From Desulfarculus baarsii DSM 2075 (GTDB lineage: Bacteria > Desulfobacterota > Desulfarculia > Desulfarculales > Desulfarculaceae), in contig NC_014365.1 in NCBI RefSeq assembly GCF_000143965.1, positions 1,453,501 through 1,517,500 of the forward strand: a stretch of 64,000 bases of DNA, given 5' to 3'. Made by a program: the position numbers and the translations under genes. Under the pieces are notes generated by a model, which was not told where the DNA came from, made no database searches, and saw only the letters and a program-made list of their open reading frames with translations. Shown here one piece after another: positions 32,028 through 36,323 of this stretch (position 1 is its first letter; every line of letters starts with the position of its first letter).

Positions 32028-32151
32028 GCCGTTCGCGCCGAGGAAAAACGCCCGTGGTTCAACAAAGGTCATCGGCCGGGCGTGATTGTCTTATAATGAT
32101 AAGCAAGTGTGCCATCGTTGCCTTGGTGGATCGACAACGAGCTGGATCGGG

Positions 32152-35100
32152 ATGGGCGAAGACAAGCAAGACCTGACGGCCGTCGCGACGCGGCCTGGCG
32201 ATCCGGGCGGGCAAGGCCGCCAACCGCGAGCCGGCCTGGACGGTGGTCGGCCCCGGGCGGCGGTTACGACCACGGCCCAACGCCTGCTGGCCATCTTTGA
32301 AAAGGCCCGCGACGCCATTTTGATCTGCGACGACGATGGCCGCTATCTGGCCGCCAACCACGCCGCCGGCCTGCTCACCGGCCACACCCCCGAGGAGCTG
32401 ACCCGCCTTTGCCTGTGGGATCTGACGCCGCCGGCCATGGCCGAACAAGGCCGGGCCGTTTGGCGCGAGTTTTTGGCGCGAGGCGAGTTGGACGGCGAGT
32501 ACGCCCGGCTGCGCCGCGACGGCGGCGAGGTCCAGGTGGAGTTCCGCGCGGTGGCCAACATCTGGCCCGGCGCGCACATGAGCATGCTGCGCGACGTGGG
32601 CCGGCGCAAGGAACAAGAGCGCCTGCGCCAGCGCGACGAAGACCGCCTGGAGAGCCTGCTGCGCATTTCGCAATACCGGGCCGCCGGCGATCAGGAGTTG
32701 CTGGACTACGCCCTGGAAGAGGCCATCGGCCTGACCGACAGCAAATTCGGCTATATTTACCATTATTCCGAGGAACACCAGGAGTTCGTGCTCAACACCT
32801 GGTCCAGGGGCGTCATGGCCCAGTGCGCCGTGGCCCAGCCCCAGACGGTCTACGACCTGCACAAGACCGGCGTCTGGGGCGAGGCCGTGCGTCAGCGCCG
32901 GCCCATGGTCATCAACGACTTTGGCGCGCCCCATCCGCTCAAGCGGGGCTATCCGCCCGGCCACGTGGCGCTGCGCAAATTCTGCACCGTGCCGGTGATC
33001 GTCGACGAGCGCATCGTGGCCGTGGCCGGGGTGGCCAACAAGGCCGCCGACTACGACGACGCCGACGTACGCCAGTTGACCCTTTTGATGGATTCGGTGT
33101 GGAAAATGCTTGAACGTCGCCGCGCCGAGCAAAGGCTCGAGGAAAGCGAGCGGCGTTTTCGCACCCTGGTCGACAGCGCGCCGGAGGCGATTTTCATCCA
33201 GACCGATGGCCGTTTCGCCTACGTCAATCAGGCGGCCGTGCGCCTTTACGGCGCTGGTGCGGCCGACGATCTGCTGGGCGCGGCGGTGATCGAGCGCTTT
33301 CACCCCGACGACCGCCAGAAGGTGCGGGAGCGCATCCGCGACCTGAACCAAGCCAAGCTTTCCGTCCCGTTGATCGAAGAACGGATCCTGCGCTTGGACG
33401 GCGCGGTGGTGGACGTGGAGGTTTCGGCGGTGCCGTTTTGCTACCAGGGCCGGGATGGGGCCCTGGTCTTCGCCCGCGACGTCTCCGAGCGTAAGCGGGC
33501 CGAAAGGGCCATGCGCGAGAGCGAGGAAATGATGCGCAGCATCTTCCGCGCCGCGCCCATCGGCATCGGCGTGGTTTCCAGGCGGGTGCTGCTGGACGTC
33601 AACGAACGCTTTTGCGAAATGACCGGCTACGCCAAGGAGGAGATCATCGGCCAGAACGCCGTGATGCTTTATCCCACCCGCGAGGAGTTCGACTACGTCG
33701 GCGCGGAGAAATACCGCCAGATCGCCGAGCGGGGCACCGGCACGGTGGAGACGCGCTTCAAGCGCAAGGACGGCCGGGCCATCCACGTGCTGATGAGCTC
33801 CACGCCCCTCAATCCCAGCGATCTGGCCGCCGGCGTCACCTTCACCGCCCTGGACATCACCGAGCGCAAGCGGGACGAACAAGCCCTGCGCCAATCACGC
33901 GACCTGCTGCAAAGCACCATCGATTCGCTCTCCAGCCACATGGCCATCCTCGACGAGCACGGGGCCATCATCGCCGTCAACGCCGCCTGGCGCAAATTCG
34001 GCCAGAGCAACGGCTTTGGCGCCCAAAACCACGGCGTGGGCGAAAACTATCTGGAAATCTGCCGCGAGGCCAGGGGCAACTGGTCCAGCGAGGCCCCGCT
34101 GGTGGCCCAAGCCATCGGCGACATCCTGGCCGGCCGTCGCGAGTTCTACTATCTGGAATACCCCTGCCACGGCCCCGGCGAGGAGCGCTGGTTCGCCCTG
34201 CGCATGACCAGCTTCGCCAGCGGCGGATTGCTGCGCGTGGTCATGTCCCACGAAAACATCACCCAGCGCCGCCACGCCGAAAACGCCCTGCGCCAGAGCG
34301 AGGAGAAATTCCGCCTGGTCTACAGCGCCAGCCCCGACGCCATCAACATCAACCGCGTCGATGACGGGCTCTACCTCGACATCAACGAGGGCTTCACCCG
34401 CCTGACCGGCTATACCCGCGACGACGTCCTCGGTCGCTCGTCGCTGGAGCTAAACATCTGGCACGACCCGGCCGACCGTCAGCGCCTGGTGGCCGGCCTG
34501 CGCGAAAAAGGCTATTACGACAATCTGGAGGCCAAGTTCCGCCGCAAGGATCAAAGCGTGGGCGCGGCGCTGATGTCGGCCCGCCTGATCGAGATCGGCG
34601 GCCAGAGCTGCATTATCTCCATCACCCGCGACATTTCCGATATGAAAAGGGTGGCCGACGAAAAGGCCAGGCTGGAGGCACAACTGCGCCAGGCCCAGAA
34701 AATGGAGGCCATCGGCACCCTGGCTGGCGGCATCGCCCACGATTTCAACAACATCCTGGGCGCAATCATCGGCTACACCGAGTTGGCCCAGGAGCTGACC
34801 CGCGAGGGGGCTTCCAACGCCGATGAATTGGCCCAGGTGCTGCGTTCGGCCGATCGGGCGCGCAAGCTGGTCCAGCAGATACTGACCTTCAGCCGCAAGG
34901 TGGAGTCGGACCGCCGGCCGCTCAGCCTCAACAAGATCGTGCGCCAATCGGTGGGCATGCTCGAACACACCCTGCCCAAGATGATTCGCATCGAGACCGA
35001 CCTGGCCGCCGACCTGCGGCCGGTCTGCGCCGACGGCAACCAGATCGAGCAGATTATCCTCAATATCGCCGGCAACGCCGCCGACGCCATGCCCGATGGC

Positions 35101-35826
35101 GGCCGGCTGCTCATCGAAACCCAAAACGCCATTCTGGGCGAGGAATATTGCCGCCTGCATCTGGACGCGCGGCCCGGCCAATACGCCATGTTGCAGATTT
35201 CCGACACCGGCCGGGGCATGGATCAGCGCACCCGCGAGCAGATCTTCGACCCATTTTTCACCACCAAGGAGGTGGGCAAGGGCACCGGCCTGGGCCTGGC
35301 CATCGTCTACGGCATCGTCAAGGACCACGGCGGCCATGTTTCCTGCTACAGCGAGCCGGACCTGGGCAGCACCTTCAAAATCTTCCTGCCCGCCCAACAG
35401 GGCCCCGATGACCAGCCGCCCGCCGGCCAAGAGCTTTCCGTGGCCCTGCTGCGCGGCAATGAAACCATCCTGCTGGTCGACGACGAACCAGATCTGCGCC
35501 GCCTGGGCGTGCACGTGCTGGCCAGCGCCGGCTACAACGTGCTGGCCGCCGGCTCGGGCGAGGAGGCCCTGGAGCTTTTCAAGGCCTCCGCCGGCCGCAT
35601 CGACCTGCTGGTGATGGACCTGGGCATGCCAGGCATGGGCGGCCACAGGGCCCTGAAGGAGATCCTGGCCATCGACCCCAGGGCCAAGGTGATCATCGCC
35701 AGCGGTTACGCCGCCAACGGCCAAGTCAAGGCGTCGCTGCAATCGGGCGCGGCCGGCTACGTGGCCAAGCCCTTCCGCCGCGTCGATCTGCTGTTGACGG
35801 CGCGCAACGTCCTCGACGCCAAATAG
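32152..35826 (+). CDS. Multi-PAS/GAF hybrid sensor histidine kinase
   Basis: The 1224-residue soluble protein reads PAS (about 43-150), GAF (about 163-320), four more PAS domains (about 330-840), HisKA with [12 protein letters not shown] (His863), HATPase_c (N-box [23 protein letters not shown]) and a receiver domain with LVMDLGMP (Asp1156) and a conserved AKPF lysine. The GAF resembles those with [21 protein letters not shown] 32152 is preferred; a TTG at 32086 would add 22 residues. TATAAT at 32092-32097 could be its -10. No output gene is adjacent. Confidence 0.92.
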
Positions 35827-35847: not shown

Positions 35848-36168
35848 TCAGTAGCCGATGACTTTGTCGGCCAGCTTGATCTGCTCGTAAAGAAACTTCA
35901 TCGTCGACAGGCTGACCAGCGCGCTCGCATCCACCCCGTGGATGCCCATGCACTTGCCTCAGGCGGCCAGCACGCCCTCACTGAGGGTGAACAGCTTGGC
36001 CTGCTCGGCGATGGGAAACTGGGCGCTGTCGCCGTCCAGCAGGTCCACGGCCGGGCCGTTGAGGAAGATGGTCACCTCTTCGCCTTCGTTGAGCATGAAG
36101 TTGCCCAAGCGCACGGCGTTCCACTTGACCTCGGGGTCGGGGTTGGAAAGGACGATCAGTATTTGCAT
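35848..36168 (-). CDS. DsrE-family selenoprotein (TGA-encoded Sec at residue 70)
   Basis: The frame starts MQILIVLSNPDPEVKWNAVR, typical of DsrE/YchN-fold sulfur-transfer proteins. After 69 codons it meets TGA (35959-35961) and continues in the same frame for 36 gene-like codons (GKCMGIHGVDASALV, ending LADKVIGY) to a second TGA. Reading the first TGA as selenocysteine gives 106 residues, normal for the family, and the redox motif U70-G-K-C73 at the place where relatives carry C-x-x-C. A hairpin right after the TGA fits a bacterial SECIS. Sec machinery genes are not in this window. Confidence 0.82.
35927..35961 (-). promoter_or_regulatory. Bacterial SECIS-like hairpin with the recoded TGA
   Basis: On the minus strand the TGA (35961-35959) is followed after 13 bases by GCATCCAC, loop GGG and GTGGATGC (35945-35927), a perfect 8-bp stem. 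The loop begins 21 bases after the TGA and starts with G. Known bacterial SECIS elements need a short stem, a G at the start of a 3-14 base loop, and about 16-37 bases from UGA to loop. Confidence 0.75.
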
Positions 36169-36282: not shown

Positions 36283-36323
36283 AAAAGCCCCCCGGACGCG
36301 GATCGACGCCGCGACCGGGGGGC
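36283..36323 (-). terminator. Rho-independent terminator after panE
   Basis: GCCCCCCGG (36287-36295) pairs with CCGGGGGGC (36315-36323), with further inner pairing CGG/CCG. On the minus strand the stem is followed by TTTT. It lies 8 bases past the panE stop. Confidence 0.7.

Follow-up and report, generated by a model that had tools for sequence, protein, structure and literature searches.

Does the reading frame of a short dsrE-like gene in Desulfarculus baarsii DSM 2075 end at a TGA in codon 70, or is this TGA read as selenocysteine (Sec), and what might such a residue do? The gene is located at 35848..36168 on the minus strand of the window, the 64,000-nucleotide stretch of DNA that was analyzed. 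The original prediction of a DsrE-family selenoprotein gave these coordinates exactly and left the strand unstated. The best overall explanation, to which a probability of about 0.85 can be assigned from the sequence data, is that the gene encodes a selenoprotein of the YchN/DsrE fold, in which a SECIS hairpin directs the insertion of Sec70 and this residue probably acts as a single-site nucleophile.

The class itself has been described before, as the original prediction had stated. Reports of DsrE-like selenoproteins date from 2005 for the Sargasso Sea (PMC1088965) and from 2006 for Desulfovibrio vulgaris (PMC1794560), and reviews list them as PF02635 proteins with a UxxC motif (WP_014524487.1) and a function that is unknown. 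The D. baarsii protein resembles them in its Pfam DsrE domain, in the Sec at the active site, in having U-x-x-C and in its deltaproteobacterial host. The present set differs in that it extends to the Desulfarculales and to many families of the phylum, the D. vulgaris protein being compared by its description, in that the second cysteine is variable, and in that covariation within the coding SECIS was measured.

The reading frame across TGA70

The frame starts with an ATG at 36168-36166 and runs through MQILIVLSNPDPEVKWNAVRLGNFMLNEGEEVTIFLNGPAVDLLDGDSAQFPIAEQAKLFTLSEGVLAA, the in-frame TGA of codon 70 (35961-35959), GKCMGIHGVDASALVSLSTMKFLYEQIKLADKVIGY and the terminal TGA (35850-35848). The product has 106 residues including Sec70, which is surrounded by the sequence ...LSEGVLAA-U-GKC-MGIHGVD...VIGY. 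The TGC codon of Cys73, a putative second redox residue that is variable across the subfamily, is at 35950..35952. When the TGA is read through, the protein matches the Pfam DsrE family PF02635 over residues 1-104 (1.7e-6, 28.6 bits), above the curated cut-off of 22.7 bits, whereas the 69-residue stub that precedes the TGA scores only 0.22 and 12.2 bits. Thus the codons beyond the TGA do complete a DsrE fold, as had been proposed. The truncated open reading frame of 69 residues that an ordinary gene finder was expected to produce is indeed listed. No NCBIfam model matches the DsrE selenoprotein, and an ordinary pipeline would therefore deposit the truncated protein.

Orthologues were sought in the class to which D. 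baarsii belongs, in 395 genomes of the phylum and in a 348-genome Desulfovibrio-type class. The Sec column is occupied by TGA in 99 distinct sequences of this subfamily (subfamily 1), by TGC (Cys) in two and by CGA in one, the latter (L024) being a truncated remnant. About 100 distinct orthologues keep the frame past the TGA instead of ending at residue 69. The terminal stop is likewise TGA in 27 of the 64 full-length, gap-free orthologues that were used to calculate pN/pS. In these, the codons preceding the TGA have a ratio of 0.31 and those following the SECIS one of 0.45, compared to 0.97 for the 75 nucleotides past the final stop. The contrast between these regions shows that the coding frame ends at the second stop and not at TGA70, and that the codons following TGA70 are under purifying selection.

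Some members of the family deviate from this pattern. In the CGA-containing remnant (L024/L106, G049 C11:148999-149157), an Arg codon replaces that of Sec and the N-terminal half of the gene is lost, the hairpin being kept; the gene appears to have decayed recently, although this genome retains SelA and SelB. Another sequence (L023/L152, G057 C1) has an extra TAG at the position of Trp16 besides the Sec TGA, and is either a pseudogene or the result of a sequencing error. In two genomes the selenoprotein gene is present twice, as identical copies (G697 C2:2185850 and 3529188; G710 C1:880566 and 3862497). The copies share their flanking genes, which points to segmental duplication.

The SECIS hairpin and the decoding of UGA70

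A bacterial SECIS hairpin is predicted at 35927..35945 on the minus strand on the basis of its fold, covariation and codon choice. It begins 13 nucleotides past the UGA and consists of an 8-bp stem closed by a GGG loop (35935-35937): GCAUCCAC-GGG-GUGGAUGC, with a folding energy of -24 kcal/mol and a z-score of -2.4. The loop is of the GGN type. All four features expected from the published bacterial SECIS rules (PMC13188914) are found here, namely a loop of three nucleotides with G in the first position, a stem of 8 bp, a spacing of 21 nucleotides between the UGA and the loop, and an energy well below -7.5 kcal/mol. An Rfam search at this site gave no SECIS match.

The base pairs of the hairpin, numbered from the base that follows the U of UGA, were compared among 89 distinct sequences. 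Pair 18/32 joins the first base of codon 76 to the last base of codon 80. The pairing is standard in 82 of the 89 sequences, compared to 41 expected if the two positions were independent, and no other downstream column approaches this covariation. When changes were placed on a tree calculated with the SECIS segment left out, two-sided changes arose independently about 14 times at pair 18/32, four times at pair 20/30 and once at pair 19/31, about 19 compensatory changes in total. The double change at pair 20/30 replaces Glu80 by Lys together with a C to T change in codon 76. The outer pairs 16/34 and 15/35 show little conservation and were left out of the core SECIS.

As a result of this pairing, residues 76 and 80 occur in couples: Ile (AUC) with Asp (GAU), Leu (CUC) with Glu (GAG), Leu (CUU) with Lys (AAG) and Met (AUG) with His (CAU). 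Codon choice is restricted as well. The codon for Val79 is GTG in 87 of 87 sequences, compared to 235 of 521 (45%) elsewhere, and Asp80 next to Ile76 is encoded by GAT in all 40 cases, whereas 73% of the other Asp codons are GAC. In the SECIS segment pS drops to 0.31, half of its value elsewhere. Both Cys orthologues have a weaker hairpin, with five of eight pairs remaining in L157 and six of eight in L056. These comparisons demonstrate selection at the RNA level on the predicted hairpin, and its conservation is evidently so strong that nearby amino acids are dictated by it. The pairing forces paired residue changes (Ile/Val/Leu76 with Asp/Glu/Lys80), and the coupling of codons 76 and 80 represents an unusually clean example of an RNA structure shaping a protein sequence.

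The D. baarsii genome, a single 3.66-Mb contig, contains a tRNA-Sec (72.8 bits) and genes for SelA, SelB and SelD. The three genes whose absence would have spoken against the original prediction (selA, selB and selC) are therefore present, as is selD. The SelD gene, which is outside the window (G000 C1:3511511-3512437), carries an in-frame TGA, and SelD is therefore itself a selenoprotein. The organism's own SelA, SelB, SelC and SelD would decode UGA70, directed by the intragenic SECIS just past the UGA. The co-occurrence of the gene with SelB is uninformative, because SelB was found in 353 of the 395 phylum genomes (89%). One genome counts against decoding as Sec: in G604 (95% complete, three contigs) a dsrE gene that has the TGA and a good SECIS hairpin is intact (L145, C2:796176-796493), but SelA, SelB and tRNA-Sec were not found in it, owing either to a gap in the assembly or to a recent loss.

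Two other readings of codon 70 have to be weighed. If TGA70 were a true stop, the gene would produce a 69-residue protein followed by a remnant frame. TGA is a stop in the standard code and, as described above, ends many of the orthologues; however, homology and purifying selection persist past TGA70 and disappear past the final stop, the same arrangement is common to about 100 orthologues, and the stub is unrecognizable as a DsrE domain. The comparative data already refute this reading, which retains practically no probability. It is just as improbable that the TGA is read as another residue, such as Trp, or is a site of leaky termination, because the same column is Cys in E. coli YchN and in a group of homologues with CGTC, the hairpin, which obeys the bacterial SECIS rules, is lost or weakened in both Cys orthologues, and the genome has the complete Sec machinery. 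Given the conserved TGA, the selection on both sides of it, the covariation in the SECIS and the full machinery, decoding of UGA70 as selenocysteine is as firm as sequence allows and can be considered nearly certain.

Fold relatives and the variable second cysteine

Neither a phmmer search of the PDB with the single protein nor one with a profile of close relatives (A1) gave a true match. A broader profile (A3), which combines both subfamilies of DsrE selenoproteins with Cys homologues, aligns over its full length with E. coli YchN (1JX7) at an E-value of 2.8e-7. In this alignment Sec70 falls on the first Cys of the YchN motif CKTC. YchN thus resembles the D. baarsii protein in its fold, but is a Cys form without Sec. 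The expected correspondence between Sec70 and an active-site Cys is also seen with the CGTC homologues, and assignment to the DsrE family is borne out. In a weak hhalign match (probability 45%, E-value 2.3e-4), Sec70 is positioned on Cys78 of TusD, the sequence of which was checked against 2D1P. The equivalent Cys78 of Allochromatium vinosum DsrE carries a persulfide and hands it to DsrC (PMC3397948). Although Sec70 matches the catalytic Cys78 of TusD/DsrE in the TusBCD and DsrEFH complexes, the sequence similarity is weak and the window locus lacks adjoining tusB/C/E or dsrF/H genes. An AlphaFold2 model calculated from nine sequences had a pLDDT of 49 and was discarded.

YedF, which consists of SirA and DsrE domains and tracks SelD (PMC5322559), has a CGxC motif in its DsrE domain, and YedF gives a weak, partial match from subfamily 2. 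The DsrE selenoprotein differs from YedF in lacking a SirA domain and scores far below the YedF cut-off.

The window protein has U70-G-K-C73, as do most sequences of subfamily 1. The U-x-x-C motif of the original prediction therefore holds for the window copy, but not as a rule for the family: several branches have Ser, Leu, Arg or Ala in place of the second Cys, giving the motifs UGKS, UGKL, UQKS, UGKR and UKKA. Seven orthologues (L071, L191-L193, L050, L060 and L061) retain the Sec and have no Cys anywhere; Lys72 is also kept in these Cys-free proteins, except for one divergent sequence. Since such variants exist, the second Cys is not obligatory, and a Cys three residues further on appears to be an unsound defining feature for DsrE-like selenoproteins. 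The only invariant positions in an alignment of 24 rows are E13, R20, F35, G65 and Sec/Cys70. The original prediction had also placed the TGA where relatives have the first Cys of a C-x-x-C. This was not confirmed, because close relatives nearly all have TGA and Cys is found mainly in distant homologues, such as the CGTC group and YchN. The dispensable second Cys and the SECIS that shapes residues are not mentioned in the publications consulted.

Other DsrE-like selenoproteins were encountered in the searches. A second subfamily, with the motif GDFYV-U-GVC (L025-L030, L104 and L161:7111-7419), has a different SECIS hairpin with a loop of six nucleotides. One locus (L206, G186 C1:217900-219500) contains, within 1.6 kb, two different DsrE-like frames with an in-frame TGA (ULTC and UGAC), possibly two further divergent selenoproteins. 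In two genomes (L096 of G429 and L103 of G359) a Cys form (CGTC) is in tandem with a Cys-free Sec form (UKKA), an arrangement that suggests a hetero-oligomer.

Genomic neighborhoods and possible function

The neighbors of the gene in the window are panB, panE, a sensor kinase gene and folD. The gene follows panB and panE, the latter encoding ketopantoate reductase (PF02558/PF08546; 36331..37254, minus strand). Downstream, a convergent gene at 32086..35826 on the plus strand encodes a PAS/GAF hybrid sensor kinase with a receiver domain. A strong G+C hairpin followed by TTTT is located after panE (36287..36323, minus strand; -33.6 kcal/mol, z-score -3.3) and is probably an intrinsic terminator, so that the selenoprotein gene is likely to be its own transcription unit. 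A promoter-like match was disregarded because it overlaps the start codon. Module queries detected no sulfur or selenium genes in 32 kb around the locus, ArsR is also absent from it, TsoA and TsoY were not found within about 16 kb, and there are no DsrEFH/TusBCD partner subunits beside the gene. The absence of a sulfur-relay gene next to the window copy, noted in the original prediction, is thus correct; its description of the partner as unknown stands for this locus, but the neighbors of relatives provide candidates.

Close orthologues from different genera share no neighborhood, as far as can be judged from mechanical ORF calling, which is crude in GC-rich DNA. Divergent relatives, both Sec and Cys forms, adjoin TsoA and/or TsoY together with ArsR, TsoA and TsoY being selenoproteins of the 'three selenoprotein operon' (review PMC13188914). 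The most complete order is that of L161: a NifS-type desulfurase gene, which overlaps the start of dsrE, the Sec form of dsrE, thioredoxin reductase (TIGR01292), ArsR, TsoA and TsoY. The order in L122 and L227 is thioredoxin reductase, ArsR and the Sec form of dsrE. ArsR and TsoA adjoin the gene in L225, L226, L228, L096 and L120 (a Cys form), TsoA is found in L212 and a TsoY-family gene in L214. ArsR accompanies TsoA at the Cys-form loci L159 and L160, the second of which also has TsoY, and a NifS-type desulfurase adjoins the Cys form in L102. The publications consulted do not describe an association of divergent members with Tso genes, desulfurase and thioredoxin reductase.

Because the window copy has no neighbor linked to sulfur or selenium, a function can only be transferred to it from branches that are about 43-58% identical. 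Sec70 presumably replaces the catalytic Cys78 of TusD/DsrE and works as a single-site nucleophile. A persulfide donor, for example a cysteine desulfurase, would load it with sulfane sulfur, or selenium, to give Sec-S(e)H; the bound atom would then be passed on, or released as sulfide when the thioredoxin system reduces the adduct. In proteins that have Cys73, this residue may help to resolve the Sec-S bond, but the family can do without it. A role as a carrier or reductase of sulfane sulfur or selenium has roughly an even chance of being correct.

The reviews' 'UxxC' label implies instead a thioredoxin-like thiol/selenol oxidoreductase that forms a Sec70-Cys73 selenenylsulfide. The U-G-K-C of the window copy and of most of subfamily 1 would fit such an enzyme, as would the thioredoxin reductase next to some relatives, but the replacement of the second Cys in several branches, and the Cys-free orthologues that retain Sec and, with one exception, Lys72, make it improbable. 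Chemistry at a single residue is favored over a selenenylsulfide because the second Cys is dispensable while Sec/Cys70 is invariant, and the alignment of Sec with Cys78 of TusD/DsrE makes a single-site carrier of sulfane sulfur more probable than a dithiol oxidoreductase. The protein might also serve selenium metabolism, either by carrying selenium between a desulfurase or Sec lyase and SelD or by sensing it. The DsrE domain of YedF and the desulfurase genes in L161 and L102 are compatible with this role, and SelB is located within 1 kb of the Sec form of dsrE in G333 and G113; however, the SelB neighbors are limited to one genus, no SelD neighbor was noted, and a selenium carrier that depends on Sec for its own synthesis would be circular, though SelD shows that such circularity is tolerated. 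This role is doubtful. The single-site carrier can be placed in a wider scheme, which is put forward tentatively: it may form an unrecognized selenium-dependent relay for sulfur (or selenium) with the NifS-type desulfurase, thioredoxin reductase, an ArsR-type regulator and the Tso selenoproteins. Such a relay would operate in sulfate reducers and their relatives, the Desulfarculales and Desulfovibrio copies having become detached from it.

A gene that standard annotation truncates has been corrected, and the class of DsrE-like selenoproteins now has a firm base of about 100 distinct sequences. The loss of the second Cys, together with the desulfurase, thioredoxin reductase and Tso neighbors, gives rise to hypotheses on a selenium-dependent transfer of sulfur in sulfate reducers that can be tested.
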